From Scenedesmus sp. ARA3 (lineage: Eukaryota > Chlorophyta > Chlorophyceae > Sphaeropleales > Scenedesmaceae): a stretch of DNA of 64,000 nucleotides. Location of the stretch: contig RWJK01000863.1 of the NCBI GenBank assembly GCA_004335835.1, forward strand, positions 55,343-119,342. Reading direction: 5' to 3'. Positions 1-49,900 of this stretch are shown in pieces. How positions within the stretch are numbered: position 1 is the stretch's first letter; the number at the start of each line of letters is the position of its first letter. The translations under genes were made by a program, and so were the position numbers. Under the pieces are notes generated by a model that was not told the DNA's origin, did not search any database, and saw only the letters and a list, made by a program, of their open reading frames with translations.

Positions 1-1699
1 CGCCAGTCTCAATCGCTGACCTGGGGGGCACTGAGGTGCGCTGCATGTGTTTTTATTTCAGCCAGGCTTTGAATTTGATTAGCTCAGGCTGAAGAGGTTA
101 CAGCTGTGCTTGAATGTTGTGAGGGGCAGCCGTCCAGCAGCTGTACCCAGCGTGGTGCTGTGTCTGCAGCACCTTGACTGATATGTCGCTGCAAGCTGCA
201 GGCTGGCAGCAGACGTAACACAAAACATGTTTGAGGTGGTCAGCTAGCAGAACCCTTTTCTGCAGTGCCCTGACAGTCCGCTGTGTCACGCCTGGCAACT
301 TAAACTATCATCGCAGCGGCCACCGTCATCACAATCAACATCGTTGTTGTCATGTTTGCCTGCCTGCAGATCGACCTGCGCTTTGCCTGCCCTGAGGAGG
401 GCAGCCTGCAGGTGGTGGTGGCGCCGGTGCTGCGCTTTGCTGACGTGGGCTACAACGCAGGTGTGTTATTTTGACACATATAACACGTAAGTAACATGTC
501 ATGCAGCAGAGCTGCATGTGGGTGTGTTGTGGTGGGCCGTGGAAGCCAATTTGCGTGCATGCAGTGCTGCTGCCTCGTGTGTCCTTGCTTGAACATGACG
601 GCTGTTGCTTCCTGCCTTCAGACGTGCGTATCACCGACCTGAACAAGCCTGAGAACATCGCCAGCAGCTTCAACCAATAACGCCTGATGACATGACACAA
701 ATGCTGCTGTTGTTCCCTGCCTGCAGATGTGCGCATCACGGACTTGAACAAGCCTGAGAACATCATCAGCGGCTTTGCGCCGGAGCTGTTTGGGCGGCCG
801 CTGGACGATGAGGACGTGCTGGAGCAGCGCGTGCTAGAAAAGGAGGGCGTACCGTACTATGAGTGGTGAGCAGCCACATATCCTTGATGATGTTGCACTT
901 GGTGGTTTAGTCAAGATTGTGACCAGCAGGGGATGCAGCAGCAATTGCTTGCCGGAAAGTTACAGTGTTGTTGCAAGGGGCTGTGGGCTGCTGTGCATGC
1001 CGTGGCACGCGCACGATGCTGCGGCCTACTGTGTTGGATCAGCAAAGGAACAAATGACGAGGACGTGCTGGAGCAGCGCATGGTGGAGAAGGAGGGCGTG
1101 CCCTACTATGAGTGGTGCGTGCTGCTGACTTTGTAGCATGAAGTGTGACATGTTGACTTTGTAGCATGAAGTGTGACATGTTGACTTTGTAGCATGAAGT
1201 GTGACATGTTGAGGACGTAGGGCACATGGGTCACAGCACAAGCAGGCATTCCACACCACGAGTGGCAGATGCGCAAACGCTCGTGCGCCACCGCGCCACC
1301 TTCCGTCTCGTCCTGCAAGCTCTTGCTGGTGCTCATGCTCGCCGTCACGTCGTAGATGTGAAAAGGACGTTCAAAGATCCGCATGCACAGCAGTAGCGCA
1401 CGCAGCAACCTGCAGCCGCAACACTTCACTTTGCTGCTGCATGCAGGCCACACCTACAGCTGCAAGCTGCTGCAACGTGCATCAAGCCTTACCAGTGTCT
1501 CGCTGCTTGGCTGCTTTCACGTTGCTGCTGCAGGCAGGTCAAGCCGCACAACCTGGTGTCAGCGACAGCAGTGGGCAACCGCGTGTTCATCCTGAACATC
1601 ACTCCACGCAGCAGCCGCACATTCGCCAAGACAGGTGAATCGCTGCGCCGCATGCAGGAGTCGTTCTACGTGCCTGCTGACTACAAGAAGCTCACGTAA
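1..1699 (+). CDS. PsbP-domain thylakoid lumen protein, 5' end outside the window
   Basis: Exons 1-35 (partial), 370-460, 727-865 and 1534-1699, stop TAA 1697-1699. All junctions are GT-AG and the phases join: ...GGTE/IDLRFACPEEG...FADVGYNA/DVRITDLNKPENI...VPYYEW/QVKPHNLVSATAVGNR...SFYVPADYKKLT. The series 'VRITDLnkPE', 'YYEW', 'PHNLVSATAVGNRVFIL' and a final 'SFYV' strand follow the order of the PsbP (OEC23-like) fold. Proteins of this family are imported into the chloroplast lumen, where members support photosystem II, NDH or photosystem I assembly. Which paralogue this is cannot be said because the transit peptide and N-terminal half lie upstream. Fragments of exon 727-865 recur in both flanking introns. 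Family is well supported; subfamily is unknown. Confidence 0.85.
622..672 (+). repeat. 5'-edge copy of PsbP exon 727-865 in the upstream intron
   Basis: Follows an AG acceptor and repeats the start of the real exon (VRITDLNKPENI) with several silent changes and IASSFN in place of IISGFA; it then meets a TAA. It lies in intron 461-726, upstream of the intact exon. Confidence 0.8.
1056..1115 (+). repeat. 3'-edge copy of PsbP exon 727-865 in the downstream intron
   Basis: Repeats the end of the exon (DEDVLEQRxxEKEGVPYYEW), again followed by a GT donor, with V-L changed to M-V and silent differences. It lies in intron 866-1533, downstream of the intact exon. Confidence 0.85.
1126..1209. repeat. 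Three exact 28-bp direct repeats in PsbP intron
   Basis: The unit begins tgactttgtagc and ends gtgtgacatgt; three head-to-tail copies without mismatch directly follow the 3'-edge exon copy at 1056-1115. Confidence 0.9.
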
Positions 1700-4548: not shown

Positions 4549-4585
<37 letters not shown>

Positions 4586-5410: not shown

Positions 5411-5441
<31 letters not shown>

Positions 5442-8170
5442 GTTATTGCTGCTGCGCTCTCCTAGGCCGCTAAACCATGCTGTCCCCATGCTGTCACTGT
5501 GCCATTAACAGGCACGCTCAACATTGAGGGCGGCTGCTACACCGAGTGCATCGGGCTCGCACCACCACCTTCAAGCACACTTCTGATCCTGCAATATTGT
5601 GTTGATATCTTTTTGCAGGCGTGTTTGAGGGCGGCTGCTACGCCAAGTGCATCGGGCTCAAGGCGGCCAGCTACAAACCAACCATAATGCTCACAATCCT
5701 GCTGTCTTGTAAACACTGTGCAGGCGTGTTCAACATTGAGGGCGGCTGCTACGCCAAGTGCATCGGGCTCAAGGCGGCCAGTGAGCCGGAGATCTTCAAG
5801 GCCATCCGCTTTGGCAGTGTGCTGGAGAATGTGGTGGTGGACGAGCGCACACGCGACGTGGACTACATGAGCAACAGGATCACAGGTGGGCGCTGATATA
5901 TATTGTTACATAACATGTAATGTGTCATGTTGTTACTTGTGGTTTAGCAGCAGCTAGAGAATGTGGTGGTGGATGAGCGCATGCGCAACAGCTCTGGCAG
6001 CCTCTGGTAATTCTGATTTGCTCTCGGCTGCTCCTCGGTCATCGCTCGCACTGCATGGCTGACGCTGCTGGTGCTGCTGCTGCACCTGCACCTGCTGCAG
6101 AAAACAAGCGCGTCAGCTACCCCATTGACTACATTGGCAATGCCTGCACCTTACGACCCTCCCGAGTAATCTCTTTCCTGAAACTTTGTGCGTCCCGCTG
6201 TTGTGCCTGGGTTTGTGGTGCAGAGAACACGCGTGCTAGCTACCCCATCGACTACATTGACAATGCCAAGATCCCCTGCGTGGGCCCGCACCCGCGCAAC
6301 GTGGTGCTGCTGTGCTGCGACGCCTTTGGCGTGCTGCCGCCAGTCAGCAAGCTCAGCCTGGAGCAGGTCATGTACCACTTCATCTCCGGCTACACCTCCA
6401 AGGTGCGTTTTATTGTATGTTATTTTCTATGTTGTCTGTGTTATTTTTCTATGTTATCTGTGTTATTTTGACTGTACGTGCTGCCGCCAGTCAGCAAGCT
6501 CAGCCTGGAGCAGGTCATGTACCACTTCATCTTTGGCTACACCTCCAAGGTGCGTGTTAGTTTTCTATTAGTTTGTTGGACTGGTCATGCATGTTTGGAT
6601 TGACGTGTGCACTGGAGCAGGTCATGTATCATTTCATACTTGGCTACACCTCTTAAGGTGTGTGGCCACTGCTAATGCGTGTGCTTCATAGTGCTTAGTA
6701 AGTACGCTCAATAATGCCTGCTTGTATAGCACTCAGAATAACGTTGCAATGTGTTTTGTGTTTGTAGGTTGCCGGCACAAATACGGGTGTCACGGAACCA
6801 GAGACCACCTTCTCTGCCTGCTGCAGCCGCCACCATCCTGCTCCATCTATAACATTCAACATTATTGAGTCTGTCATTGCATGTGTATCCACAGGTTGCC
6901 GGCACAGAGATGGGTGTCACCGAGCCCGAGGCCACCTTTTCCGCCTGCTACGGCGGCGCCTTCCTGATGTGGCACCCCATGAAGTATGCCGCCATGCTGG
7001 CAGAGAAGATGCGGCAGCACGGCACCAAGGGCTGGCTGGTCAACACAGGTGAGCGCCTGTGCACACAGCCCCTTTGTGGACAACAAGTGTGATGTTTCTG
7101 GCCTGTACTTGTGCTGTTTCGTAGTCCACACCTACGTTCTTTGCTCAGCTGTAGCATCTCTGGCAGCATTGTCAGAAGGCACTGCACTGCCCACATACTG
7201 ACTGTGCTGCAACTGCCCTGCCGCTGTGCTGCCTGCAGGCTGGACTGGTGGCAGCTATGGCGTGGGCAGCCGCATCAGCCTCAAGTACACTGCAACCTTA
7301 CTAAAGAACATGCTCTGTACTGCCTTTGTACTGCCACTGTACTGCCGTTGTACTGCAGGCTGGACTGGTGGCAGCTACGGTGTGGGCAGCCGCATCAGCC
7401 TCAAGTACACGCGCGCCATCATCGACGCCATCCACAGCGGGGCGCTGGACAGCGTGGAGTGCGCTGAGATGCCGCTGTTCAAGCTGCAGGTGGGGTTTTG
7501 TAGGTTTCAGGGGTTTTGTGGCTCAGGTTTGAGCTGCTGCAAGAGGGCTGTGAAGGCTGTGTGGCAAGGCTGCTGCTGCTGCTGGCCTGTATCAAGATGT
7601 CAAAGCACTTCCGTTGCAGATCTGGCTGCAGGCTCGCACTGTTAGCCCAGAGCGCATCCGTCCAGTCTTGGCATCAGCGAGGAGCGCCCTGCTCACTGTG
7701 CCATGTTTGCTGCTGCTGCTGCCGCCTCCGTGGTTCTCCTTTCATCCATCTACCTGCAGGTGCCCACCTCGTGCCCGGGCGTGCCCGACGTGCTGCTGCA
7801 GCCCGCGCTGCAGTGGGCCGACAAGGCAGACTTTAATGACACACTGGCACAGCTGGCCACACTCTTTGTGGGCTCGTTCCGCAGCTACCTGGAAGATGCC
7901 GCGCTGCATGTGGGCGCTGACATGGCAGACAGAATCTTATCTGGCGGCCCGAATCTGGATGATATTAAGGCGGCAGAGGCGGCAGCAGCAGCAGTGCCAC
8001 ACGAGCACCATGATGTGCATGCTGCGCCGCTGGGTCCTGATGAAGGGGATGGAGATAGCGATGTGCCGGCAGCGGAGGAGGAGGCGGTGCAGAAAGGCGG
8101 CGAGTGCAAGGTGTGTGCGGCGCGGCAGGTGGCGGACGCTGCTGACCTGGCGCCAGCTGGCATGGTGTAG
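2933..8170 (+). CDS. PCK: Phosphoenolpyruvate carboxykinase (ATP)
   Basis: Twelve exons: 2933-2951, 3126-3167, 3250-3398, 3659-3719, 4191-4414, 4588-4705, 4949-5257, 5724-5885, 6224-6402, 6895-7048, 7359-7489, 7760-8170; 1959 nt, 652 residues, all phases consistent. It converts oxaloacetate plus ATP to PEP, CO2 and ADP (gluconeogenesis). The kinase-1a loop GLSGTGKT lies near residues 279-286 and the ATP-PEPCK signature LIGDDEHCW near 296-304. [39 protein letters not shown] and [16 protein letters not shown] are further family blocks. No transit peptide is evident, so it is probably cytosolic. The canonical end (GGPNL) is followed by about 70 extra residues, acidic and containing ECKVC. The first exon is only 19 nt. 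Introns hold at least seven partial copies of exons 8-11. Confidence 0.97.
4706..4770 (+). repeat. 12-bp G-rich minisatellite in PEPCK intron 6
   Basis: About five head-to-tail units of gggctgggtggc and the variant gggctgggcggc begin right at the donor of exon 4588-4705. G-runs on the sense strand could form a G-quadruplex in the pre-mRNA; that is inference. Confidence 0.8.
5512..5670 (+). repeat. Two 5'-edge copies of PEPCK exon 8 in the upstream intron
   Basis: Copies 5512-5558 and 5619-5670 each follow an AG acceptor and encode versions of [16 protein letters not shown] ([34 protein letters not shown], one codon missing). The intact exon starts at 5724. Neither copy ends in an evident donor. 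Confidence 0.88.
5951..5984 (+). repeat. Fragment of PEPCK exon 8 3' half in the downstream intron
   Basis: Repeats the [11 protein letters not shown] coding segment of exon 8 (5819-5855) inside intron 5886-6223, then diverges. It has no usable splice site of its own. Confidence 0.7.
6101..6143 (+). repeat. 5'-edge copy of PEPCK exon 9
   Basis: After a CTG-rich tract ending in CAG, this encodes [15 protein letters not shown] against [15 protein letters not shown] in the real exon at 6224. It lies in the upstream intron. Confidence 0.85.
6477..6657 (+). repeat. Two 3'-edge copies of PEPCK exon 9 in the downstream intron
   Basis: 6477-6549 repeats [22 protein letters not shown] with one replacement (S to F) and keeps the GTGCGT donor. 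6612-6657 is an older copy, [14 protein letters not shown] followed by an in-frame TAA, and has lost the exact donor context. Confidence 0.88.
6768..6820 (+). repeat. 5'-edge copy of PEPCK exon 10
   Basis: After a TAG acceptor it encodes [18 protein letters not shown] against [18 protein letters not shown] of the real exon at 6895. Confidence 0.87.
7239..7290 (+). repeat. 5'-edge copy of PEPCK exon 11
   Basis: After CAG it encodes [18 protein letters not shown] with only silent changes from the real exon (7359), then runs into intron sequence. It is one of the youngest copies. Confidence 0.9.
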
Positions 8171-8199
8171 GCAGGTATTGCGCCTCGCAGCCGAGTGCA

Positions 8200-8288
8200 G
8201 GAGGAGGTGCAGAAAGGCGGTGGCGAGTGCAAGGTGTGTGCGGCGCGGCAGGTGGCGGCCTGAGCTGGCGCCAGCTGGCGTGGTTTAG
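8200..8288 (+). repeat. Copy of the PEPCK C-terminal extension beyond the stop
   Basis: Repeats the coding segment 8082-8170 ([20 protein letters not shown]...APAG, then a TAG) starting about 30 nt after the stop codon. It carries a small insertion and a deletion, so the copy is no longer in one frame. Confidence 0.8.
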
Positions 8289-8925: not shown

Positions 8926-8930
8926 TGTAA
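8926..8930 (+). terminator. Candidate TGTAA poly(A) signal, PEPCK
   Basis: TGTAA about 760 nt past the PEPCK stop. A long 3' UTR is usual in green algae, but a second TGTAA near 9484 is an alternative. Confidence 0.3.
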
Positions 8931-9917: not shown

Positions 9918-11007
9918 TCATCTGCTCAACCTGCTCGGCAATGACTTGCCGGCGCTGCCGCTGCTTGCTGCTGCTGCGCCTGTGGAGCTGGCCAGGGCAA
10001 TTGCCTCCCTGAGGGCTATGGCCCACTCACAGCACTCCTCTACACTGGAAGCCTGCGGGACACAGCAGCAGCAGCAGCAGCAGCAGAAGCAGCAGCAAGG
10101 GTTTTAAAAAGGGCCATGGACATAGCTGCACTAGGAACTAGGCTGAGGTCTGTGCCATGCACACAACTGACAGCAGCTGGCATTCCATCTGAGCAGCAGC
10201 AGCAACAACCGCCACACGCCGTACCATATCCCAGCGCACGCTTGCCACCAGGACTCGACGCCTAAGCACAAGTAATCATATCACTGTTCATGGCAGCTGC
10301 TGCTATACTAACGCTCCCGCAGCTTGACCTTCCTGCTGCTGCAGCTCACCAGCCAGCCGCATGCCATCGATGTTGTGCTGCAAACACACAATCTCCCAAA
10401 ACAGCCGCCTCACCTGCAGCGTGATCTTCTTCCTGCTGCCGCGGCCCACCAGCAACATGCTATTGGTTTCTGCAGACCCTGCTTTCAATATAGCAGCGTC
10501 ACCTGCAGCAATCTTCATGCTGCCGTGGCCCATCAGTCAAAGTGCTTTTCTGCAAAGGCTGTTTTCAGGACAACTGCCTCACCTGCAGCGTGATCTTCCT
10601 GCTGCCGCGCCCTACCAGCCAGCCGCCACTGCCAGCATGCTCTTGGTGTCCTTTGCGAATGGCTCTCTCCAAAACCAACCAAAACAGCTGCCTCACCTGC
10701 AGCGTGCTTTCCTGCTGCCGCGGCCCACCAGCCAACATGCTACTGGTTGTGTCTGCAAGTGCTATGTTCAAATCAGTAGCCAAAAAGTAGCACAGTGTTG
10801 GCTCACCTGCAGCGTGATCTTCCTGCTGCCGCGCCCTACTAGCCAGCCGCCGCTGCCAGCCTCCACCAGGTGGAACACGGGCGCAGCGCCAGCCTCAAAC
10901 GAGCACCTGCGGCGGCGGCAGAAGCAGCAGCAGCAGCACAAGTTGAGTGTCTATAGCCTCCACCAAGTGGAACACGGGAGCAGCGCCAGCTTCAAACGAG
11001 CACCTGC

Positions 11008-11100
<93 letters not shown>

Positions 11101-12114
11101 CATACTTGGTGTCCATCCTCCACCAGGTAGAACACAGGAGCAGCATCGGCCTCAACAGAGCAATTGCAGCAGGCTGTGAGCCATAGCAGTTACGTGCCTA
11201 TTGGTTAAACTCACAGCAGTCTGACAGCTTAGATGGTGTTACAGAATCACTCTGCGCTGCCACCCCCTGCTGCCCGCAGCATGTATGGTCCCTGAAGCTG
11301 CATCCACAACCACGCTCGAAAGGAGTGCAAATACGACACATCCACTGTACGTGCATTGACAGTACTTGATGTCGATTAGTACACTCATGCTAATGCCATC
11401 GACCACAGTAAAAGAGCCAGCCCTCACCTGCACAGGTTGAGCGGTCGCTCCAGCGGTGTCACATCCTCCATGCCGGGAAACCAGTGCACATGATAAACAA
11501 TCAACATACCAGCGATAACAGACAACAAATGAGCAACTTAAATAACACAAATTCCCTCACCTGCACAGGTTGAGTGGCGGCTCCAGCGGCGTGACATCAT
11601 CCATGCCAGCAAACCAGATCACATAACAGAGACACCAAACTTCAAGACCCAACGTAACAGCTGTTTATCGAGGAAATAGCTCTCACCTGCAGAGGTTAAG
11701 TGGCGGCTCCAGCGGTGTGACATCCTCCATGCTGGCAAACCAGTGCAGGAACCCGGCACGCGTCAGCACAAAGTGGGCACCCGCCCAGCTGCTGCTCTTG
11801 GGCTGCCACAGCTCCATGGCCCCTTGCCGGATGATCTCAGGGCTGCAGAAGAGCTCCTGAGACACAACACACACTGCTTCAGCCTGCCGTGCGGCAAGCT
11901 GCTCACTTGTAGCGCGCATGTCTGCGGCAGCGGCGGCAGCAGCAGCAGCAGCAGCAGCAGCGGAGTGATTGAGCTGAGTATGTATGTATGTGTATGCCAC
12001 AGCTCCATGGCGCCCTGCCTGATGATCTCGGGGCTACAGAACAGCTCCTGAGATACATTACAAAATGCCTCTGCTTGGCGCGCTGTGAGCTGCTCATTCG
12101 TAGCGCCCATGTCT

Positions 12115-12146
<32 letters not shown>

Positions 12147-15100
12147 GGCAGCAGGAGCGGATCAGTTGGCCAGGATCTGTTTGTGTGTGCCACAGCTCCA
12201 TGGCCCCTTGCCGGATGATCTCAGGGCTGCAGAAGAGCTCCTGAGAAACATTGCACACGGCTTCTGCCTGGCGCGCGGCGAGCTGCTCGCTGGTGGCGCG
12301 CATGTCTGCAGCAGCAGCAACAGCAGCAGCAGCAGCAGCAGCATCGAACTGATTAGGCTGGGTATGTATGTCTGTGCCACACAGCTCCACGGAGCCCTTC
12401 CGGATGATCTAAGGGCTGCAGAACAGCTCCTGAGACACATTACAAAATGCCTCTGCTTGGCGCGCTGTGAGCTGCTCATTCGTAGCGCGCATGTCTGCAG
12501 CAGCAGCAGCAGCAGCAGCAGTGGCAGCAGGAGCGGATCAGTTGGGCAGGATATGTATGTATGTGCCACAGCTCCATGGGCCCTTGCCGGATGATCTCGG
12601 GGCTGCAGAACAACTCCTGAGAAACATTGCACACTGCCTCTGCTTGACGCGCGGCGAGTTGCTCGCTGGTGGCGCGCATGTCTGCAGCAGCAGCAGCAGC
12701 AGCAGCAGCGGCAGCAGTGGCTGAGTTGGGCTGAATGTGTACGTGTGTGCTGCTCTCCGTCCAGCCAACACACACATGTGGCATCTAAATCACCACGCTA
12801 GTGCTTCATCGCCTGCCTCACACTTGTTCCCGCCTGCTGCCACCTGTGCCAGGTGTTGCACGCCCGCCTCCCAAGCGTCACCATCAGCCCATGTCGCACG
12901 CATGCAAAAGACACCCCACCCGCTGTCTCACAGCTGCTGCCTTATACTTGCCCTGACCTGCTGCTACCTGCACCAGGTGCTGCTGCGATTCCGCCTCTCT
13001 CCCCTCCACAGCACACAACACACCCCCTTTCCTGGTGCCTGACACTTCCTGCTCTACAACAGCATCCAATTCACCTGCTGCCACTTGTGCCAGATGTTGC
13101 ACGCCGGCCTCGTCAGCACCACCCAGCCCGCCAAGCATGCCCTGCAGCAACAACACAACCCACTCGCTGCCCCGCACAACATACACTCACCTGCTGCCCA
13201 CCTGCGCCAGGTGCTGTACACCCGCCCCTTCCTCCACAACCTGAAGCTAACTAAATATAACAGCAAAAAACAGTATCAAACCAGTAATATAACTGTATGT
13301 GCCTCACCTGCTGCCACATGTGCCAGATGTTGCACGCCGGCCTCGCCAGCGTCACCCAGCCCGCCAAGCATGCCCTGCAGCATGGCAGCAGCAGCAGGCA
13401 TGCCGGCCACTGCGCTGCTGTAGCTCTCAGCCAGCGCCTGCCCGGCCTGCATCAGCGCTGCCACGCGCTCCTGCTCCAGGGCCTGCAGCGAGTCAAAGCC
13501 ACGCTGAAGCAGCTCGCGCTCCTGGTCCTGCAGCAGCAGCAGCAGCAGGCCGTGCCAGCAGTGCAGTCATTCCGCTGCAGTAGCAACCTAGTGCCATCTG
13601 TTGGCTGCAAAACCACGCAGTACAAGTACATGCACTTCTGCAGAGTGTTTGTGGCGCTCAGCTGTGCTGATGGCCATCCCACACAGCACCACACTGCCGC
13701 CTTGCCCACCTGCCACATCTGCAGCACCATGCACAGCAACAGCAACCAGACCAACAGCAACCCACGCTGCTGACTCACACACCTGCCACTTCTGCAGCGC
13801 AGCTTGCTCCGCAGCCAGCTTGCCTTCACTGGCCCAGGGGTCCCGTGTGGGAGCAGCAGCAAACCTCGGACGCAGCACACCGCCGCGAGACCACAACTGA
13901 CGAGCACATACCGGGCTGCAGTGTTTTGGGGCGCTCAGCTGGCATTCACATTAATGTATAACACCAACAACTATGCACAGCACCAACGCCAGCCATGAAC
14001 ATCATCAACACCAAGTAAACACATCGCCGCACTGCTGCTGGCCGCACCTGCCACTTCTGCAGCGCAGCTTGCTCCGCAGCAAGCTTGCCTTCACTGGCCC
14101 AGGGGTCCCGTGTAGGAGCAGCAGCAAACCTCGGACGAAGCACGCCGCTGCCGCCGCTGCTGCTGCCAGCCGCCAAATGCAGCGCTGCAACTGCCATGCC
14201 AGCTGCACCCGTCCACGCATCACCTACTGCTTCTACGCTGCTGCTGCTGTTGCCGCGGCGGTGCTGCTGCTGCTGGTGGTGTGCTGCGTCGCTGCTGCTG
14301 CTGCTGAGAGCGTGGCCGGTGGACTGCCAAACTACCACTGCATCGAATGCCTCACAGGCTGCTCTGTGTTCACTGAGGCAATGCTGCAGCTGCTTGCAGC
14401 TGCTGTCGATTTGCCTCTGAGCCTGCATAGCGGTTGGGGCGACGCAACAGCACAGACCACAGAAAGGTGATCGGAACACGGAGATCTGAGCGTAAGGACG
14501 TGTGGTGAGATCGCTTTCATTGTGATTGCGGGAGGCTGGCGGCAGATCACGTCATATGACCACGGCAGAAGGCAAAAGCAAGCCCAGCAAGACAGCAGCC
14601 AGCTAGCAGACAGCAAGCGACCATACCAAGTGCATTGAGCTGGATTCCAACAAGGTTCAAGAAAATAAGAAGAGGAGAACAGGGCGATCCAGCCACGCAC
14701 CGTGCTCACGGAGTTTTTGAGCTCCTTTGCTGCTGCGTTGTACTTGCGCCACAGCGCACGCACCGCCTCAACGAGCGTCTGCGGCAGTACGTGTCAGCAT
14801 GTAACATTTATAATGAGGCCAGCAGCATAGAGGTTTTCTTGCTGCTTTTATAAACTGTAAGCTTGTGACAGCTAGCCATGCTTGCTGCACCCGGACTAAG
14901 AGCATGATGCAAACGGCTGACTGTAGTGCTGGAACGGCGTGTTGTTGCATGCGAGATCTGCTGATATGCCCTTGCCTCCTGTGCCTCTGCGCATGCAGCC
15001 ACTGAACATCCACAGGTCTCATGCCACAAGCCAACCCCATCTCAAACACTCGCATGTTGGAAGTTTAGCATTTCAGCACAAAAGCCGCCAATGCACAGAC

Positions 15101-16745
15101 AGCATTGTTCACTAATCGTCCTATGCCTAACTGCCTGCAAAAAACAGCTCCCACCTGCAGGTCTAGGTACAACTGCCTGTGGCCAGCAGCAGCCGCTGCA
15201 GGCAGCTGCACCAGCCCTTCTACTGCTGCTTCCAGCCCTCCACTGTCTGCTGGTGCTGCCAGCGGCCCCGCTGCTGCTGCTTTTGCTGCTGCTGACATGG
15301 CGCTGCTGTAAGCTGCCTCTGCCTCCATGAGGCAGGTGACCAGCCGCAGCAGGCACTCAAGCGCTCTGCAGGTGGCAATTAATAAAGCAGCAGCAGCAGC
15401 GATAGGAAATGATGCATGGTAAGTGCAAGCACAACAAGCTAAGAAGAGGCGGGAGTTGTGGTGCCTCAGTGCAGCCCTGCTGCCTCTGCTTCCATGAGGC
15501 AGGTCACCAGCCGCAGCAGGCACTCCAGCGCTCTGCAGGTGGCGACAATGGACAAAGCAGCAGAAGCAGCGGCAGCAACTGCGATAGGCGATGGCGTATG
15601 CGAACTGCAAGCACGGCAGCACAGTCCTGACGAGTAGGGATGTAGCGTACCAAAGCAGTGAAGGGCAGCACATGCCCAACAGTAAATGGCCTTGCAGCCG
15701 CTCCAGCAGCAGCCCAGCCAGCTTCCAATGAACCTCTGGCCTCTACCCCACCAAACAGTAATGTGCAGCCCTGTCCATGCCAGCAGCGTACTCACTTCCT
15801 GCTGCTGTGGCGCTCCGCCAGCAGCCCAGCCAGCTCCCGGTTGACCTTGCAGGGGCACAAGCAGCTCGCTACAAACCCAACGAACAGTCCTGTGCGATCT
15901 CTCTTGAAGGTCTCTCTCTGTTTTTAACAAATGTCTAGATTTTTTTTGCAAAGCAATTGTCTGGGCAGCAACACACTCACTTCCTGCTGCTGTCCAGCCG
16001 CTCCGCCAGCAGCCCAGCCAGCTCCCGGTTGACCTTGCACTCCTCGCCCACACCTTGCAGGAGGGAGGACAGGTGCTCGCCCTGGCGTGCCAGCTCAGCC
16101 TCGTGCCCCGAGCCTGAGGCGACAGCAAGCACAGCAGAAAACAGGTTGTTATGGATGCACACGAATGTATACGTTGGACACAGGCAGGTGCGCCGCCTGG
16201 CACACGAGCTCAGCTCAGCCTCATGGCCCCAGTCTGAACCAGGCAACACACAACAGGGCAGAAAAAAACAGACAGGTGGGTCACCCTGGCGGGCAAGCTC
16301 AGCTTCACGCCCCGAGCCCGAACCAAGCGACAAACAAAAAAGGCAGGGAAAGAAAAACACATCTAGATGGTTGAACAGGTGCACCACGCTTGCCGCAGGC
16401 ACACTCCTAGGCAGCGCTGCTGGCGCGCTTGCAGAAGCAGACCTGGCGGTCACCATCACTGCTGCTGCTGCTGCTGCTGTCAGTGACTGGCAGTGCTATT
16501 GCAAGGCCACCTGGTCAACCTTCCCACACCTAAAACCCCCAAACATCCAATATTTTAAATCCAGCAACCTGTAACAACAGCCAGACGCACACCTTCCAGG
16601 CAGCTGCCCACGTCATCGTCCATGTCTGCTGCTGGCGTGCCGCTGCCGCCGCCAAGCTCCCGCCGCGCTGCTGTCGCCAGCGCTGACTTGTTCTTCAGGA
16701 ACTCCTCCATGCTAAAACGTGTGTCACTGATGGCGGGGCTGGCCT

Positions 16746-16786
<41 letters not shown>

Positions 16787-16840
16787 GCTTGAGAAACTCC
16801 TCCATGCTAAAACGTGTGTCACTGATGGCGGGGCTCGCCT

Positions 16841-16873
<33 letters not shown>

Positions 16874-29785: not shown

Positions 29786-29825
<40 letters not shown>

Positions 29826-35860: not shown

Positions 35861-36088
35861 TCAGCTCTTCACGATTGCGCCCAGTATGTCACTGCACACC
35901 TCCACCAGCCGCTGCCTGTCACCCGGCCGCACCCCCTCATCCCTAGCAAGCTCTACCGCCACTGCTGCTGCTGCTGCTACGGCAGCAGTGACGCCGCTGG
36001 TGCTTGGTGTTGCATTGCACAGGCACTTGGCCAGGAAATGCAGCAGCAGGCCGAGCGCGACTGCCTCCTTGATGCATGCGGCATCTGG
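35861..36088 (-). pseudogene. Condensed downstream copy of the last exon of the 858-residue gene
   Basis: On minus, the copy begins with the exon-3 start (ACIKEAVALGLL) and the TPSTSGVTAAVAAAA segment, skips about 800 nt, and ends with the exon-3 end (ELARDEGVRPGDRQRLVEVC... ILGAIVKS and a TGA). The join keeps one reading frame. An AG precedes it, but the phase does not match a direct splice from exon 2. Confidence 0.85.
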
Positions 36089-36116: not shown

Positions 36117-37788
36117 TCAACTCTTCACGATTGCGCCCAGTATGTCACTGCACACCTCCACCAGCCGCTGCCTGTCACCCGGCCGCACCCCCTCATCCCT
36201 AGCCAGCTCCATCAGCTTCCCAACTGCCTGCCCCACAACATCAAGCTGCTGGTTGTGCGCAGCAGCAGCAGCCTCTCGCTCCTGCTGCATGCGCAGCAGC
36301 GCCTGCTGCTTCACACCCAATGAAGCCTTTGCCAGCACCACCTGCTGCCGCAGCTGCTGCATAGCACCCTGTAGCGCCTGCAGCTCAATAGCCGGCGTGT
36401 GCTGCTGCTGCTGCTGCTGCTGCAGCTGCGCTGCAACTTTGCGTGCTGCTGCGGCCTCATTTGCTGCTGGGATGACCATGTAAGCCAGTTGCTTGCAGAG
36501 CCGCTGGGAGCGGGAAACTGCCATGACAGTGCGCAGGAACAAGTCCCGGCCTTGAGGGGACATCACAGCGCCGCCCTGCTGCTGCTGCTGCTGCTGCTGC
36601 TGCAGGCCAAACAAGCCTAGCTCGGGTGCCTCTGCCGGTGTATCTGCTGGGGTCGCTGCTGCTGCTGCTGCTGCGGCGGCGGCGGCGGGTTCCTCGCCTT
36701 CACCAGGGATATCAGCTTGAGCTGCCTGCTGCTGCTGCTGCTGCTGCTGCTGTGGCAGCGGCTGCTCCAGAGCTGGTGCAGCAGTATCGCTGCTGCCATG
36801 GCTCAAGTTGCGGTCCAGGTGCCTGCTGCTGCGCGCCTCTGATGCCGCTGGCGCTGCTGCTGCTGCTGCTGCTGCCTCGCTTGCTGTGGCTGCTTCTGCA
36901 GCGCTGCTGCTGGCCAGGCGGTGCAGCTTTGCTGGCCTGCCCCCTGTCTCATCTGCTGCCTGATGAGCAGTACTGTCCCTGGGCCGTTTTGCAGGTGAGG
37001 CAGTTTGCTCCTGTGCATTGCCGCCGCTGCTGCTGGGTCCGGCTGCTGCTGCTGCTGCCGCTACGGCAGCAGTGACGCCGCTAGTGCTAGGTGTTGCGGT
37101 GCGCAGGCATTTGAGCAGGAACTGTGGCAGCAGGCCGAGTGCGACTGCCTCCTTGATACATGCAGCAGCCTGCGGAGGTGGGTGACAGCAGCATGGACAG
37201 CAAAGCAACGCATCACATTGCGGTTAGCGGCATGTTGGCGTATGGGTGAGAGCAACACTGCACAGAACGACAGCTGCAGCTGGCTTGTGTTACACGCGCA
37301 ACAACTGACACCAAGCCACGCAGCCTAAGCCCAGGAACTGTGGCAGCAGGCCGAGTGTGACTGGCTCCTTGATACATGCGGCAGCCTGGGGCCAAAACAA
37401 CAGCACATCACACCAGCACAGCATGTGAACGTCAGCGCCTCGTCTGGATGTTGCTGTTATGCTGCCCAGCACACCTGCAACGGGCATGCCTGTCTGCATC
37501 TGCAGCTGCCACGGCCGCGACAGTTCACCATGCACTTTGCAGGATGCACCCAACTTGCCCGTGAGCAACACAGCCGCAGTGCTGAGTACCCGTGCATCCA
37601 TTCTATCAGCAGTCGTGCCACTGGGTGCCGCAAATACAAGGATAGGAGCAGAGTTTGGTGTGCGGGGCGGGAGAACTTGAGTGCTAACTCGTATGGAAAC
37701 ACTCCGCACCTGCTTCTTTGTGCTGACCACATCATCCAGCACCTTCTGCAGCTGTGCTGCATCAAAGAACGCGCCAGCTGGCAGCCCT

Positions 37789-38710: not shown

Positions 38711-38750
<40 letters not shown>

Positions 38751-40777: not shown

Positions 40778-40832
<55 letters not shown>

Positions 40833-40922
40833 CAACACAGTGCTCAGATGTATGGCATCACCACTAAATCAGCGCAAATACCATCGTCGCGCTTGGCGAC
40901 AGCAACAGACGCCGCCGCAGCA

Positions 40923-40955
<33 letters not shown>

Positions 40956-43730
40956 CATGGCGGCTTGTGCTGCCCCTCTGCAGCCACTCCATGTGTCTAC
41001 GAGTTCTGCAGACACCAGCTCAGCAGCAGGCGCTGCAAAGCCGCGGACTCCCGCCTCCCCACGCCGCAACCACGCACCCACACCCACACGCACTGCTCAT
41101 GCACTGCTCATGCGCTGCACACGCACATGCACATGCACTGCTGATGCGCTGCACACGCGCATGCACCCACATGCACACACGGTCACATGCTCACACGCAC
41201 CTGCACATGCGGACCTTCCTGTGCGTGTGCACATGCACGTGCATTGCACTGCACTGCACACGCACCCACATGCTCACACCGACACGCACCTGCACATGCG
41301 TATCTTCTTGCGCGTGTGCACGTGCAGCAGCTGCAGGCAGGCCTTGAAGGTCCAGCGCAGCGGGAAGGGCAGCCCGACCATGTACAGCACCTGCAGCCAG
41401 CACCCGCAGAGGCAGCAGGGTGTTGGCACTGCTGCCAAAAATGCGTGACTGGGCAGCCTGACCATGTACAGCATTTGCTGGCAGCGCCCACCAGAGGCGT
41501 TGCATGCTACCACGACATGACCCAGGGGCTGGAACACGGGCATATGTGCGGTGTGGTGCAAGTGTGCAGCCCAAGACAACAAGCAAAAAGTGACAAATAA
41601 CTTGTAACAAGTGACAAGACGATGTGACAAGTAACGCATTCTCACCTGCAGCCTGCAGGGGTACATGCGGTCCATGACGTGCCCCACGCGCTGAAACACG
41701 CCGCGGTTGCGCAGCGTGGTGCCGATGTGCACCCCTGATGTGTCCACCACCACGCGCAGCGTGCTGGCGCAGTGGCACTCGCCGATGAGCTGCCGCACAC
41801 CATACTCCATCTGCGAGCAGAGTTGCGGAAGCAGTGGGCAGCAGCTTGTGGGGTTGTGAGGCGGGATTTCAGGCTGTTGTTTGCCAAATGCCATGAAGAC
41901 CGTCACAGCCTTGGTGCGCTGGCGCCGCACAGCGCGCCGCAATGCAGTATGGTTCACTGCACGTTTATCACACGTCGCAAGCGATCACTACTGCATGGTA
42001 CAGAACACAACAATGCAGGGCATGAAGTGCACTGCATGCATCGCCGCACCACAACATGCGCAGTGCATATGCATAAACGCATGTAACAGCATCTCCCCTC
42101 CCCTACACACTCACGTTGGACACCAGCACTCGTGCCACCAGCTCCGGCCCATGTGTCCTGCTGGCGCTGACTGCTGCCCTGAAGTCGATCATGAGCCACA
42201 GGTGCCCTTCTGCATCAGGCCCCTCCCACCACGCAATGCGCTGCCACGCCGCCAGGTCACCTGCAGGCCCATATGCAATCAAGCAGGAGCACAGAATGCG
42301 CAGCTCTCAGTGGTTACACAGATAGATTGGTATAACTCTTGGGACGTGTGCGCCTTTAGTATTAGCTCAAGGTGGTGGCACCTGCGCGTTGGTCGCCTTG
42401 GAACAACAAGGTTGAAGTCAATCATGAGCCACAGGTGCCCTTCTGCATCGGGCCCCTCCCACCACGCAATGCGCTGCCACGCCGCCAGGTCACCTGCAAG
42501 GACGTGTAGCAGCACCCAGCACATACAGTAAGTGAGCTGCGTGCGTGGCTGCAAACAACGGTGGGATGTGACATGTTCCGGCTGCAGCAGTGACGGGCAC
42601 AGCAGACCCTGTGCTGTTACATTGCGCACAATACAGAGGCACCCTGGGTACCCAAAACAGGTACAAGCGCAGCCTTTGGTTTGTGTGATACAATACAATA
42701 CTCTCAGGACCAAAACCTGCCTCAGGCTCACGCCCAGCTAGGACTTGGTGCTTCCCCAACTTTGTTTACCTGGTGGTATGAAGCTGTACTTGGCGTGCCA
42801 TGCTGCAAACTCCTTGATGTTGGACATGGTGCGGTCCATGGCCACCAGCGCATCCTTGAGGCTGCGAGCCTGAGCAGCAGCAGCAGCAGCAGCAGCAGCA
42901 GAGGTGAGTCACAGTAGAACATGGTGAGGGTTGCTACATTGCAGTTGCACGGTTGTAAAAGAATTGGCTACACCACCGCACTTGCAGGATGTTGTAGCAG
43001 AGCGCAAAGCGCATCAGCTCCTCGTCCCCTTCCGGCCCCTCAGCAAACAGCGCCTCAGGCAAATCCACGCCCGCCTGCGCCCCCGCAGCAGAGCTGTCTG
43101 TTGCGGGCACATGCACTGCTGCCCCGCAGTTTGCTGTCATCCTTCCCCATCTACCACACTATGCACACAAAGCCTACCCACTCTTTTTTCACCCCAGAAG
43201 AACATTTATGCTAGGTCTATCGCATACCTGCAGGATGTTGTAGCACAGCGCAAAGCGCATCAGCTCCTCATCCCCTTCCGGCCCCTCAGCGAACAGCGCC
43301 TCAGGCAGATCCACGCCAGCCTGCGCCAGCCGCCCCCGCAGCAGCAGCAGCCACTCGCGGTAGATGGTGCAGTAGTCTGCCAGGCTGCGGGGCATGCGGG
43401 GGTCCACGCGCGGCACCACTGACAGGCCCAGCTGGAGAGCCCGCACTGCAAGAGTCAACAAAGTTCAAGGTAGAACAGCAGCAGCAGCAGCAGTAAAATG
43501 TGAGGCACGGTAGGCAGGCCCAGCTGCAGAGAGCACACTGCTCAGGTGATGGTCACAATGATAGCAGACAGCATCAGCAGCAGCAGCAGCGGCGGCGACG
43601 GCGGCATGATATTGTTGGTGGTGGTGCAGTAGTCTGCCAGGCTGCGGGGCATGCGGGGGTCCACGCGGGGCACCACCGACAGGCCCAGCTGCAGCGCGCG
43701 CACTGCAAGATTAAACAAAGTTGAAGGTAG

Positions 43731-43779
<49 letters not shown>

Positions 43780-44102
43780 CGTGAGGCACAGCAGGCAGCC
43801 CCAGCTGCAGAGAGCGCACTGCAAGATAAACAAAATTGAAGGTAGAACAGCAGCAGCAGCAGCAGTGACATGTGAGGCACGATAGGCAGACACAGCTGCA
43901 GAGAGCGCACTGCAGAAAACATGGTCACAATGATAGCAGCATCAGCAGCAGCAGCAGCAGCAGCGGCGGCGACGGCGGCATGTTGTTGTTGGTGGTGCTG
44001 CAGTAGTCTGCCAGGCTGCGGGGCATGCGGGGGTCCACGCGCGGCACCACTGACAGGCCCAGCTGCAGCGCGCGCACTGCAAGATGAAACAAAGTTGAAG
44101 GT

Positions 44103-44156
<54 letters not shown>

Positions 44157-45038
44157 CAACAGCGGTAGCAGCAGCAGCATGTTATTGTTGGTGGTGGCAC
44201 AGCAATGTGCCAGGCTGCGGGGCATGCGGGGGTCCACGCGCGGCACCACTGACAGGCCCAGCTGCAGCGCGCGCACTGCAAAAATGCAGTATTCATGCAG
44301 ACGAGGAGCAGCAGATGCAGCAGCCATATGTTGGAGTGATGTCCTTCAAGGAGGATCAACAGCAAAAGGCAGCAGCACCAGGTGATTGTAGCTGGGTGGC
44401 AGGAAATTTTGGGACACCACACGGAGCAGCCCTGCTGGCGCTGCCAGATATGATGGCCTTGTGGTGCCCCTGCTGCTGCTGCCCCTGTGCTCCTGCCCCT
44501 GTGCTGCTGCATTTGCTTTGGTTTTAGATGCAGAGCGCTGCAGCCACGGCAGCTTGGTCACCGCTATGCATATCTGCTGCTTCCACTGCCCTTGATCATT
44601 ACAAAATGCACTGCTGCAGCAACCGAACACACCTTCTGTGCCCTCTCTGCCCGCCTTTGCTTCATCTTTGTTCTCCCGCTGCTGCACCACACTGCCCACC
44701 AGCCGCACCCCTTGCGCCAGCACCACTGCAGGGGCCCAGCCCCTAGCCAGCCTCAAGCTAAGCAGCAGCAGCAGCTTCAGAGGAGCCGCAGAAGCATGCC
44801 CGACTTGACCAACAGGCTGCGGCACATGCATGTGCCCATGCCGTTGCCTGCTGCTGCTGCTGCTGCTGGGTGGTGCGGCTGCAGCAGCTGATGCATCTGC
44901 TGCATCTTCTGCTGCTGCTGTTTGTGTGGAGCTGTCTGCGGATGACCTGATCAGGGGCGCTGCGAGTGCTGCTATCTCAAAGATGGTGGTGAGGGTGGGG
45001 GCTGCCCTTTGGCAGCGGCAGGTGGCCACTGCCTGCAT
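40196..45038 (-). CDS. SEC14-like CRAL-TRIO protein with C-terminal membrane segment
   Basis: Exons on minus: 45038-44633 (tentative), 43445-43228, 42869-42770, 42260-42115, 41810-41646, 41390-41290, 40775-40196; 571 residues if exon 1 is right. From exon 2 on, phases and splice sites are firm. The CRAL-TRIO lipid-binding fold is seen in order: LMRFALCYNILQ, IKEFAAWHAKYSF, the strand HLWLMIDFRAAV, TLRVVVDTSGVHIG, HVMDRMYPCRLQVLYMVGLP and TRKKIRMCR. SEC14 proteins exchange phosphatidylinositol and other lipids between membranes. After the fold come a Ser/Pro-rich linker, a basic GRRRGRLSARL and a hydrophobic helix (LVVGGLLVVGGAAVVLYLLL) about 50 residues before the end, suggesting membrane anchoring; algal and plant relatives with such an end are known only to me in general terms. 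Introns are crowded with exon-edge copies. Confidence 0.84.
40776..40830 (-). repeat. (CTG)n acceptor tract of the last SEC14-like exon
   Basis: About 17 CAG units on plus end exactly at the acceptor of exon 40775-40196 (CTG...CAG on the sense strand). Confidence 0.9.
41080..41289 (-). repeat. CA/CG-rich alternating purine-pyrimidine tract containing a 3'-edge exon copy
   Basis: Degenerate repeats of CACGCACATGCA fill about 200 bp. Within it, 41196-41240 repeats the end of exon 41390-41290 (HVHTRKKIRMCR as HVHTHRKVRMCR) with its GTGCGTGT donor. The tract looks like an expansion of that exon-intron boundary. Confidence 0.82.
41455..41488 (-). repeat. 5'-edge copy of SEC14-like exon 6
   Basis: Encodes VLYMVRLP against VLYMVGLP of the intact exon start at 41390; lies upstream in transcription order. 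Confidence 0.82.
42411..42495 (-). repeat. 5'-edge copy of SEC14-like exon 4
   Basis: Nearly identical copy of GDLAAWQRIAWWEGPDAEGH and LWLMIDF, after the same CTGCAG-type acceptor context; the intact exon starts at 42260. Confidence 0.92.
42984..43081 (-). repeat. 3'-edge copy of SEC14-like exon 2
   Basis: Repeats the exon end (GVDLPEALFAEGPEGDEEL... CYNILQ) almost perfectly, in the downstream intron. Confidence 0.92.
43505..44280 (-). repeat. Six 5'-edge copies of SEC14-like exon 2 alternating with CTG tracts
   Basis: Three longer copies (43628-43706, 43998-44079, 44203-44280) encode VRALQLGLSVVPRVDPRMPR; three short ones (about 43509-43541, 43790-43822, 43880-43915) encode VRSLQLGLP-like remnants. 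Between them are (CTG)5-18 tracts and copies of a short intron segment. The intact exon starts at 43445. Confidence 0.9.
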
Positions 45039-46121: not shown

Positions 46122-46920
46122 ATGTCTGCCCCTGGCCAGGCACAACCAGCAGGTTCACCTGCAGCAGCAGTGCACACACAGCTCAGCCGTGATATGGGCG
46201 ATGTGTCTTGGGCTGCGCTGCCACCAAACGTCTTGATCCGGGTGTTCCTACAGCTCAGCTTGCAGGAGCTATGCAGCTGCAGCCAGACTTGCGCCACATG
46301 GCGCAGTGCAGCAGCAGAGGACAGGCTGTGGCAGAGACTGTTGCAGGAGCACTGCTGCAGGAGCACACCTACTGGCAGAGCACAGTCCTGCAAGCAGTGC
46401 CTGATGCAACTGGTGAGAATTTCTTACAGCACAACAGCTGTGATGTTCTAGTCATTTAGTGGAAAGTTCATGTGAATCTGCGGATGGCTGGTATCTGCGC
46501 GATGCTTCAACAGTCTGTGCATGCAGCATCGTGACAAGCTTGCTGGGCTATCTTCTCCGATATCATGATTGGGCATACATGGCTCACCAAATCATGAGGC
46601 ACTGATATGCCTGACTCTGCATGCTAATGGAAATCTTGCCGCCGCTGCCAATGCTGCTGCCAAATTGACACACTGCAGAAAACTGGCTCATTGTGGAGCT
46701 GCGGCAGCCCATGGCCCTCCCTCACTGCATTTTTGGATGGTGCTACAGCCAGCAGCAGGCCCACAGAGCTGGTCAAACTCTGGTCAAACTTGTCGGCTGC
46801 TACAGCCTCGCCCCTGGAACGCTACTGCCGCCTGCCTGGAGGCTTTGCTGTAGCAGCAGTAGCTGCTGGCAGCACCCACATTGTGATGCTGAGTGCGGCA
46901 GGGGAGGTAATCGACACGCG

Positions 46921-46959
<39 letters not shown>

Positions 46960-49900
46960 TGACGTGCCAGCAGCCGCGCCACCGGCTGAGCCGCCGGCCG
47001 CAGCAGCTGCAGCAGCACTGGCAGAGGAAGCAGATCCAGGGGCAGCAGCAGCAGCAGAGCTGCAGCAGGGTGATGTGCACGATGCTGCTGCTGCTGCTGC
47101 TGCCGCTGCTGCTGCTGCTGCTGCTGCTGCTGCCGCCGCTGCTGATGAGGATGGTGGCCTGCAACAGCAGCTAGGTGTGCTCCAGCTGAGCAACCCCTGG
47201 AGGCCTTTGGGAGCCACAGTGGCCAGCATAGCAGCAGGTGGGTGCGTGGTCAAGCTGCAGCAGCTACGTTACTGCATATATCACGTATGCACTAAGCTGC
47301 CTACTGTGTCTGCAGTTCAGCTGAACTTGTGTGCAGTTACCTGCCAGCCTTTGCTCATGCCTTCTATATCCCACAAACATGCTGTTACTGCCAACACATT
47401 CATGTCAAACGGCATATGTGTCCATATGTTTGGCCTCTTGCATGCGTGCCACATGCCTTGGCACGTGTGTGCAGGCGCTGGTCATGTGCTGGCTGTCACC
47501 GAGTGTGGCCAGGTGTGGGGCTGGGGCCGCAACACGCAAAACATACAACTCTGCATGAAGTTGTCTAAAATTTTGAGAAGTTCAATTTGTTTGACCTCCT
47601 GCATGCCTTGGCACGTGTACACCTGGTCTGCAGGCGCTGGTCATGTGCTGGCTGTCACCGAGTGTGGCCAGGTGTGGGGCTGGGGCCGCAATGCGCAAGG
47701 CCAGCTGGGGCTGGGCCACAGCCGGGCCTGGGTGGCAGCACCAACAGAGGTCACAGCAGCACTTGAGGGCGCGTGGAAGGTGCGCAGCAAGGTATAATAG
47801 CAATGGAGATAGAGGGGTGCACACTTTGTGGCCATCACCATGGGAATTGGTTGGTTCCTTATTTGTGCTTGTGTTGTGAAGGCGTGCAACAGGCCACTCA
47901 TCACTAGCTGCTGCACAACAGCAATGCCCCTCTCCAACGTCAACGTGCACCTGTGTTTGATACCTGCCGGTGGATTGGCGCTATCTCCTGCAGGACGCTT
48001 GTGATGTCAAGGCGTGCAACAGGCTACTTAACACTGGCTGCTGCACAGCAGTTTCACTCTGTCGCCAAAATGCACCTGATGTTGACACTTGATATCTGCC
48101 GATGTGGAATTTCCCCTGCAGGGTGCTGCTGACGTCATCACATCAGCTGCCTGTGGTGACGCTCACAGTGCGCTGCTGGCTGCCAGTGGGGCTGTGTTCA
48201 CGGCTGGCTGCAACAGGCAGGGCCAGTGCGGACAGGACCCTGCACTGCAGCTGGTGAGGGTGATGCTGGTGGAAGTGGTTATTGGTGCATTTGTTGGTGC
48301 ATTTTGTGGTGCATTTTTTGGTGCTTGCCCTGCACTGCAGCTGGTGAGGGTGGTGCTTCTCTGCTGGCCATCTGCACGCCATAATGGTGAATCTGTAATT
48401 GCTGGTGCTTACACTGATGCTTAATACAATTTGCCGCAGCTCATAACAGCAGGTAGTGGTTTAACATACCGGTTCCTCGTGAAAGTTAGCAATGGTTTCA
48501 GCTGGTGCAGCGCCCAGCTTGACAGAGGAACAGCTTCTGCTCCTGCAGCATACAGTCACAATACAGTTCCTTGGAGGTATCAATGTACTTCTGTGTGAAG
48601 GAGCTTGTGGTGAGACCTAATGATGCCGTCGCAGCGTTCATGATAGCAGTCTGCTGCTATTGCATTGCTGCTGCTGCTTGCAGTGCCCGGTGTTTTGCCA
48701 GCCGTCGCTGCCTGGCAGCAACCCCGACCCTATCAAGGCAGCAGCGGTTGCCTGCGGCACAGCCAACACAGCAATCGCCAGCCGCCAAGGTAACTTGCGA
48801 AGCAAGGCTTGGCACCACCAGCACAGTGTGGTTGTTTCTCATTGGTTGCCTGTTGCAGCTGGCAGCTAATCCGTGCAACCGATAAAGTATGTAGCTCTGC
48901 TACATGCAGTGTAGCATTTACAGTACGACAGTGTTGAGGTCTTTGTGCTGTGCTGGCGGCTGTCGGTGCCCTGGTGCTACAGTACGACAGTGTTGAGTTC
49001 TTTGTTACATTACATTACAATACATGCTCCAGTCAAATGAGGAGTGGGAACTTCAGTCAGGTTGTGCTGTGCTGGCGGCTGTCGGTGCCCTGGTTGCTTC
49101 AACCAACGCCAGCCATATTGCGCTGCTTTGTCTGCCAACCATCAACCTCCTGACATGTGTTTCCTGCTGTCCTGTTTGCAGGCCGCCTGCTGGTGTGTGG
49201 TGACGCGTCAAGTGGCCAGTGTGGGCAGAGCTGTATCAAGCAGCGCTGCTGCTGGCAGCTTGTGGACCTTGGCCCTGAACTGGGCTGGCACGGGCTGACA
49301 CGGCCCACAGCAGCAGAGGTGGCAGCAGCAGGCGGTGCTGTGGCGCAGGCGCTGCCAAAGGTGTGTGTTGCTGCTGTCAAAGGCTTATTGAGGCTTATTG
49401 AGGCTGATTGAGGCTGATTGAGGCTGATTGAGGCTTGTTAAGGCTTATCAAGGCTTATTGAGGCTTCTTGAGGCTGATTGAGGCTGATTGAGGCTGATTG
49501 AGGCTGATTGAGGCCTGGGTTTTCTGGTGGAGCTTTGGAGAATATTTCTTTGGTGCACGGCTACAGCTGATCCTGGCATGGCAATGCTGCCACAGCAGCA
49601 GCTGCTGCCAGATGATGGACGCATATGAATGTACGTCAGGTGTTGACGAGGATCCATGCTTGTTGCTACTGTTGTATGCAGGAGCTGAGCTGCTTGCAGC
49701 TGCCTAACTTACCAGGTGTCTGTGGTGGCGTATGCCGCATGAACACACCGTGTAACCCCTCTATCTATTGTTGTTCTGCAGGTGGTGGATGTTGCAGTGG
49801 GCTGCGGCACCTGCTATGCTCTGACAGATGGCGGGGACGTGTATGCCTGGGGAGCAGGCAGCAAGGGGCAGCTAGGGCGAGGTAAAGTTGCCGGGATGTT

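Follow-up and report, generated by a model that had tools for sequence, protein, structure and literature searches.

The 64,000-nucleotide stretch analysed here (hereafter the window; contig RWJK01000863.1 of the Scenedesmus sp. ARA3 assembly GCA_004335835.1, positions 55,343 to 119,342, contig C588 in our numbering) contains seven genes, i.e. those for PsbP, PEPCK, a BAR/PH protein, AKR2, an 858-residue protein, a SEC14-like protein and an F-box/RCC1 protein, in and beside which lie 52 partial copies of the edges of their own exons. Copies of the 5' edge of an exon are found upstream of it and copies of its 3' edge downstream, and they differ from the exon in use mainly at silent sites.

The exon models of the seven genes were read by hand, and the first-exon starts of two models were shifted by 1 base after a check of the borders. 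All models are open frames with GT-AG borders, the sole deviation being one probable GC-AG intron in the RCC1 gene (50740-51094, donor GCAAGT). The PEPCK model and the Tetradesmus (T.) obliquus protein OEZ85_003713 both have 652 residues and share 99 % identity over the full length, while the BAR/PH model is identical to T. obliquus OEZ86_005457 at 487 of 491 residues from within exon 2, where the comparison starts because this protein lacks exon 1, through exon 9. These matches indicate that the window comes from T. obliquus or a very close relative. The exon joins of PEPCK and BAR/PH are those of the two independently annotated proteins, which lack any added exon or copy, and the joins of the other five genes were judged by open frames alone. 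The joins used in life would therefore be those adjoining the exon body, as seen for PEPCK and BAR/PH and presumably also in the other genes.

Each exon was compared with its own gene plus 1.5 kb on the same strand, with all exons masked (E<=0.01) and with a CTG/CAG filter, the unfiltered match list being dominated by CTG/CAG tracts and short matches. This gave 59 exon-to-intron matches in the seven genes, 52 of which, at 52 distinct places, follow the placement rule, i.e. 31 are 5' edges lying upstream and 21 are 3' edges lying downstream (two of the latter at gene ends, where there is no donor). A preliminary description of this DNA had proposed the rule and more than 35 copies; the rule stands, and the number is exceeded. 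Copies are present in 22 of the 44 modelled introns and at 26 of the 88 modelled edges. The seven other matches comprise five fragments on the right side that end short of the edge (one of PEPCK exon 8, three of AKR2 exon 3 and one of BAR/PH exon 3), one 19-bp match of chance size and a single true exception, namely a 122-bp copy of the 5' edge of the last exon of the 858-residue gene that lies beyond the stop codon and forms part of a copy of this exon with an internal deletion. The features, taken from the masked-exon search unless marked otherwise, are as follows ('live' denotes the exon in use).

622..670, + strand: 5'-edge copy with acceptor, PsbP exon 2 (live 727-865)
1056..1114, + strand: 3'-edge copy with donor, PsbP exon 2
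5512..5670, + strand: two 5'-edge copies, PEPCK exon 8 (live 5724-5885)
6101..6144, + strand: 5'-edge copy, PEPCK exon 9 (live 6224-6402)
6477..6656, + strand: two 3'-edge copies, PEPCK exon 9
6768..6840, + strand: 5'-edge copy, PEPCK exon 10 (live 6895-7048)
7239..7290, + strand: 5'-edge copy, PEPCK exon 11 (live 7359-7489); two mismatches, both silent
8187..8288, + strand: copied 3' end of the final PEPCK exon, past the stop codon
10317..10734, - strand: four 3'-edge copies, BAR/PH exon 9 (live 10906-10807)
10955..11163, - strand: two 5'-edge copies, BAR/PH exon 9
11428..11617, - strand: two 3'-edge copies, BAR/PH exon 8 (live 11921-11687)
11995..12681, - strand: four 5'-edge copies, BAR/PH exon 8, including a 384-bp two-unit block duplication
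12834..13149, - strand: two 3'-edge copies, BAR/PH exon 7 (live 13527-13308)
13783..13886, - strand: 3'-edge copy, BAR/PH exon 6 (live 14422-14048)
15479..15532, - strand: 5'-edge copy, BAR/PH exon 4 (live 15365-15155)
15796..15851, - strand: 3'-edge copy, BAR/PH exon 3 (live 16113-15981)
16185..16317, - strand: two 5'-edge copies, BAR/PH exon 3
16785..17004, - strand: three 5'-edge copies, BAR/PH exon 2 (live 16743-16593), array with CTG tracts
20498..20532, - strand: 5'-edge copy, AKR2 exon 6 (live 20428-20259)
21064..21211, - strand: two 5'-edge copies, AKR2 exon 5 (live 20989-20898)
21820..22195, - strand: four 3'-edge copies, AKR2 exon 3 (live 22442-22261), units of ~111 bp
22536..22801, - strand: 5'-edge copies, AKR2 exon 3
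35861..36083, - strand: copy, downstream of the 858-residue gene, of that gene's last exon, with both edges kept and the interior missing; the 5'-edge portion is the rule exception
37332..37385, - strand: 5'-edge copy, last exon of the 858-residue gene (live 37169-36117)
41201..41237, - strand: 3'-edge copy, SEC14-like exon 41390-41290
41451..41474, - strand: short 5'-edge copy, SEC14-like exon 41390-41290
42413..42493, - strand: 5'-edge copy, SEC14-like exon 42260-42115; 79/81 identical, mismatches silent, intron-flank homology undetected
42982..43091, - strand: 3'-edge copy, SEC14-like exon 43445-43228
43778..44275, - strand: four counted 5'-edge copies, SEC14-like exon 43445-43228, within a block duplication of 373 bp
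47475..47539, + strand: 5'-edge copy, RCC1-gene exon 3 (live 47634-47779)
47867..48009, + strand: 130-bp tandem duplication of intron tail and ~20 bp of RCC1-gene exon 4 (live 48122-48253); outside the 59 matches
48328..48343, + strand: 16-bp 3'-edge copy, RCC1-gene exon 4; outside the 59 matches

Such copies far exceed what local composition would produce. The window contains 56 local direct repeat pairs, compared with none in each of 20 resamplings by a local order-3 Markov model, and no local inverted pair was found in it; in the NUDIX and ZIP genes (about 25.6-30.6 kb), no pair of at least 30 bp passed the filter. Repeated rounds with up to six copies, as described before, are borne out by the arrays and multi-unit blocks, the copies of the SEC14-like exon 43445-43228 starting, by motif, at six places, 43909 and 43537 among them. 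Four introns contain copies of both neighbouring exons, and in these the copies of the previous exon's tail precede those of the next exon's head. By hand count, the distance between copy and live edge is divisible by three in 23 of 52 cases (17 expected).

With regard to their splice sites, the copies are mostly one-sided. When a site is called good if its score reaches the 10th percentile of live sites, the outer site is good in 33 of 52 copies (17 of 31 acceptors at 5'-edge copies and 16 of 21 donors at 3'-edge copies), whereas the inner partner site is good in a single copy (0 of 31 and 1 of 21, respectively), with ~9 % per copy expected by chance. Since the inner partner is missing, the copies should not work as cassette exons, and duplicated cassette or mutually exclusive exons, which need a splice site at either end of the copy, were rejected as a description. 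The suggestion that the copies provide alternative splice sites therefore survives in part, i.e. their outer sites resemble live ones and may be used as alternative acceptors or donors yielding disrupted messages, while alternative exons are improbable. A broader form of this suggestion holds that the copies are functional, either as alternative sites or as decoys that tune splicing, and are kept by purifying selection. The live-like outer sites speak for it; yet, given the lack of inner partners, use of a copy adds intron sequence to the message, and neither of the two annotated proteins includes one.

The duplicated units measure ~85-500 bp, some forming multi-unit blocks such as those of BAR/PH exon 8 (384 bp) and the SEC14-like gene (373 bp), and all are in direct orientation in the window. 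Homology often continues beyond the splice site: the intron flanks of copy and live edge show homology in 13 of the 22 pairs whose exon parts diverge by up to 6 % and in 14 of the remaining 29, at p<=0.05 relative to flanks taken from other genes (a further pair of the 52, with a flank under 30 bp, was dropped). Therefore, the duplicated unit in these pairs was DNA spanning the junction, and the earlier proposal that tandem duplication across a junction produces the rule is corroborated both by these flanks and by the visible blocks. The nearer copy is the less diverged one in 23 of 33 within-array comparisons and in six of eight two-copy arrays, which is what the birth of new copies at the live junction would predict, and the pattern fits replication slippage and unequal exchange alike.

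These flanks also bear on a different origin, in which exon edges would have been copied into introns from an RNA or cDNA template. In its favour, similarity ends at the splice site in some pairs, e.g. the SEC14 copy at 42493, where 79 of 81 bases of the exon part are identical but the flank p value is 0.73. Nevertheless, homologous intron sequence accompanies copies in AKR2, SEC14, BAR/PH and RCC1, every local pair is direct and the SEC14 copies occur only beside their own gene, which makes templated copying extremely unlikely.

That the exon edges themselves are special is a view that the present data do not support. Random placement of units with the 44 observed lengths puts 50 % in noncoding DNA only, 26 % across one junction, 7 % across two or more and 18 % inside an exon. 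When exons and known copies were hidden, so that each event was detectable solely through its noncoding part, there remained the AKR2 and SEC14 arrays, the mostly intronic junction case at 47867, a CTG-type pair at distance 1018 and two events confined to noncoding DNA, i.e. 48943 and a 28-bp minisatellite at 1123. The edge arrays thus do not clearly outnumber the noncoding-only duplications, and targeting to edges was rejected for want of an excess, albeit on few events and with approximate masks for ZIP, NUDIX, the last RCC1 exons and the 54-60 kb coding stretch (the ZIP and NUDIX joins have frame breaks). The case at 48943-49094 is a duplication internal to an intron of the RCC1 gene and includes a 33-bp part with 100 % identity. 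The reported near-absence of such duplications inside exons holds with one clear in-frame exception, a 267-bp (89-codon) duplication at 55712-56289 within a long Ala/Gln-rich coding stretch; although 18 % of random placements fall inside exons, selection should remove many of these.

The nature of the differences between copies and exons is harder to reconcile with a simple history. If a copy is free from birth and the live exon accepts only silent changes, the ratio of differences at 4-fold degenerate sites to those at 0-fold sites should be at most 2. The copies differ from their live edges at 127 of 559 4-fold and 99 of 2041 0-fold sites, a ratio of 4.7 (bootstrap over 30 junctions: 95 % range 3.3-6.2; 0 of 5000 replicates at or below 2). 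Matching for base and CpG content gives 4.25 and trinucleotide matching 4.08 (2.8-5.0; 0 of 2000 at or below 2), which rules out these compositional effects as the cause. The ratio is 5.1 (2.9-8.5) for the closest copy per junction alone, 5.3 (3.7-7.1) in multi-copy arrays and 3.6 (2.0-6.0) between copies. For a lone copy, a ratio above 2 should not arise by gene conversion inside one lineage either. Frame choice by codon score is too weak to add to this comparison, since it gives 2.1 instead of 4.7 for the window; its ratio of 1.9 for the genome sample described below thus neither supports nor refutes constraint.

Changes private to a copy amount to 35 silent and 42 replacement ones, a silent share above the 27 % expected without constraint (p 0.0007) and below that of the total, and part of these may be changes of the live lineage. 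In arrays with at least three copies the private changes (12 silent, 21 replacement) are close to neutral. The units at BAR/PH exon 8, with alignments read by eye, behave in two ways: the A-type pair differs by eight silent changes and one replacement, the B-type pair by four silent and five replacement changes with a stop in one member, as if coding had persisted until recently in the A-type units but not in the B-type units. With the private changes less silent-rich and the B-type pair neutral, the silent excess lies mainly in older, shared differences and would represent divergence that accrued while both partners coded, in different alleles, before one of them was stranded. A related hint comes from BAR/PH exon 7, whose copies read HLAQVAA, as does the OEZ86 protein, while the live exon of the window reads HLAHVAA; because of this common residue, these copies probably predate the change in the live exon.

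These figures weigh on two of the explanations offered at the outset. Were the copies plain debris of single-lineage tandem duplication, unconstrained from birth, then the rule, the direct orientation, the flank homology, the age gradient and the neutral B-type pair would all follow, but the predicted ceiling of 2 is exceeded by the overall ratio, by its trinucleotide-matched form (4.1) and by that of a PEPCK paralog elsewhere in the genome (4.0). Neutral debris in this simple form is thus contradicted by the silent-site excess, and we regard it as unlikely. Maintenance of functional copies would explain the copy-live and copy-copy ratios as well as the raised silent share of the private changes; against it, a codon-level signal requires translation, the private changes in arrays of at least three copies are close to neutral, and the B-type pair looks neutral and has a stop in one member. 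We therefore consider this possibility unlikely as well.

Similar duplications occur beyond the window. From the genome (87.3 Mb, 1567 contigs), 22 loci were picked by contig number, whatever they contained (186 kb, of which ~172 kb readable; very short contigs are missed), and 15 of the 21 readable loci contained 53 clusters of local direct repeats, counted irrespective of exon position, i.e. 0.31 per kb compared with 0.39 per kb (25 clusters) in the window. Local duplications are hence widespread but patchy in this genome. A PEPCK paralog on contig C1029 provides a second, exon-resolved gene with copies on both sides in the same arrangement as in the window, namely four 3'-edge copies following one exon and 5'-edge copies, at least four in number, preceding exons. 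Six of its at least eight copies give a ratio of 4.0 (23/89 vs 24/373). Two adjoining 3'-edge copies of this paralog (1232-1475 of the sampled locus L026) read DASFGLLPPVSK against an 11-residue stretch of the live exon, with most codons silently changed, including a serine AGC/TCC switch. Another PEPCK paralog, on contig C924, has no copies in 3.2 kb. When the genome was queried with SEC14, the one gene used in this way, exon-edge copies were found only beside the gene itself, the matches on other contigs being three of ~50 bp in an intron stretch.

Diverged silent sites and poorly alignable introns would also be expected if the assembly had joined pieces of divergent haplotypes end to end at conserved exons. 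However, up to six copies per junction and internal block duplications do not fit such joins, and the order of tail copies before head copies in the four introns mentioned above is the reverse of serial haplotypes. No second allele or haplotig was recovered for three queried stretches (with 40 of 188 candidates scored in one query), T. obliquus vegetative cells were judged haploid in one study (PMC5966456), and the only run of Ns in the window (24 bases, 28874-28897, in a probable NUDIX-gene intron) lies outside the arrays. An assembly artefact is accordingly very unlikely.

The account that we consider probable, with due reserve, is one of recurrent tandem duplications straddling exon junctions, in which the outer copy is stranded in the intron and the partners were often already-diverged coding alleles. 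Short tandem duplications of ~85-500 bp would arise at many places in the genome; where a unit straddles a junction, the copy joined to the exon body would remain in use, while the other, having no partner splice site, could not make an exon and would stay in the intron. Further rounds, including multi-unit blocks, would then build arrays and lengthen the intron. No aim at edges is needed, since duplications within introns or intergenic DNA would decay faster and fade from view, the exon half of a straddling unit remaining recognisable for longer because its live partner is under selection. The silent excess would be accounted for if the partners were diverged coding alleles when joined, e.g. 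when homologous chromosomes from different strains exchanged unequally, the outer copy having become noncoding only later.

Several observations weigh against this account of joined alleles. The 17 junctions with a single copy give a ratio of just 3.2 (26/192 vs 29/688), and the tests for a recombination signal in two arrays were not significant. The SEC14 copies at 42493 and 42982 are without detectable flank homology, and pairs such as the former are not explained by a recent simple tandem event, which should show homologous flanks. Finally, with cells judged haploid and no second allele found for the queried stretches, the diverged partners must stem from a sexual or hybrid history. The data reveal a real local duplication process whose copies are mostly a by-product, with one well-supported anomaly, the silent-rich divergence; the latter is testable, as either diverged alleles were joined or intronic copies are under coding selection. 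It is also conceivable, if quite unlikely, that the copies act as a working reserve, exchanging sequence with the live edge or being read in some transcripts, in which case the evolving exon edges of the alga would draw on a local library of coding variants already filtered by selection.

Partial exon duplication with tandem splice sites places extra acceptors or donors near the real ones; the present copies differ from this in their density and silent-rich divergence. A tandem duplication over an intron tail and exon head, with re-use of the parental acceptor, has been described in potato (PMC4974935) and resembles the events seen here; in potato, however, the duplicated exon head still codes and a new intron was gained, whereas in the window the outer copy belongs to the intron, which becomes longer, and copies occur at 26 of 88 edges. 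The tandem-duplication introns and intron sliding of Drosophila (PMC2891723) likewise involve splice or proto-splice sites that were duplicated and of which one copy became intronic, although there the duplication lies within a coding exon with AG/GY and here it crosses an existing junction, up to six times; introns born by duplication have been reviewed (PMC3443670). Introners (PMC9860276) share with the copies the character of intron-associated repeats found genome-wide, but the copies queried, those of SEC14, match only the neighbourhood of their own exon and form no shared family. Introners or transposed intron elements were thus rejected, SEC14 edge copies being absent from unrelated genes. 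Titles and abstract openings, which mostly leave subscription papers uncovered, hold no account of these copies in T. obliquus. Single cases of duplication across an intron-exon boundary are known; the present case differs in its density, its repetition, the growth rather than gain of introns and the coding signature.

A consequence concerns intron length. The mean intron of T. obliquus is reported to be 462 bp long, while the values for three further Sphaeropleales range over 230-302 bp and Chlamydomonas reinhardtii has 270 bp (PMC5966456). In the window, introns with copies average 532 bp and those without 302 bp. Taking the duplicated span as the distance from a live edge to its farthest copy, such spans make up 6,175 of the 18,334 bp (34 %) in the 44 introns, and their removal reduces the mean from 417 to 276 bp, which is near the values of the other Sphaeropleales and Chlamydomonas and far from that of T. 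obliquus. Duplications of this kind could thus account for the intron-length excess of T. obliquus, a proposal from one window, and offer a concrete route by which introns lengthen. Moreover, the arrays seem to keep past states of an exon edge alongside the present one, and exon-like pieces may mislead gene prediction in such genomes.

Two further repeat types were observed. CTG/CAG tracts stand directly at splice acceptors at 4552-4585, 16746-16785, 29786-29824, 40778-40834 and 50994-51089, where they may serve as the pyrimidine-rich part, and some of the tracts adjoining acceptors also border duplicated units. Downstream in the RCC1 gene region, a 16-bp minisatellite with 11 copies occupies 52850-53030.

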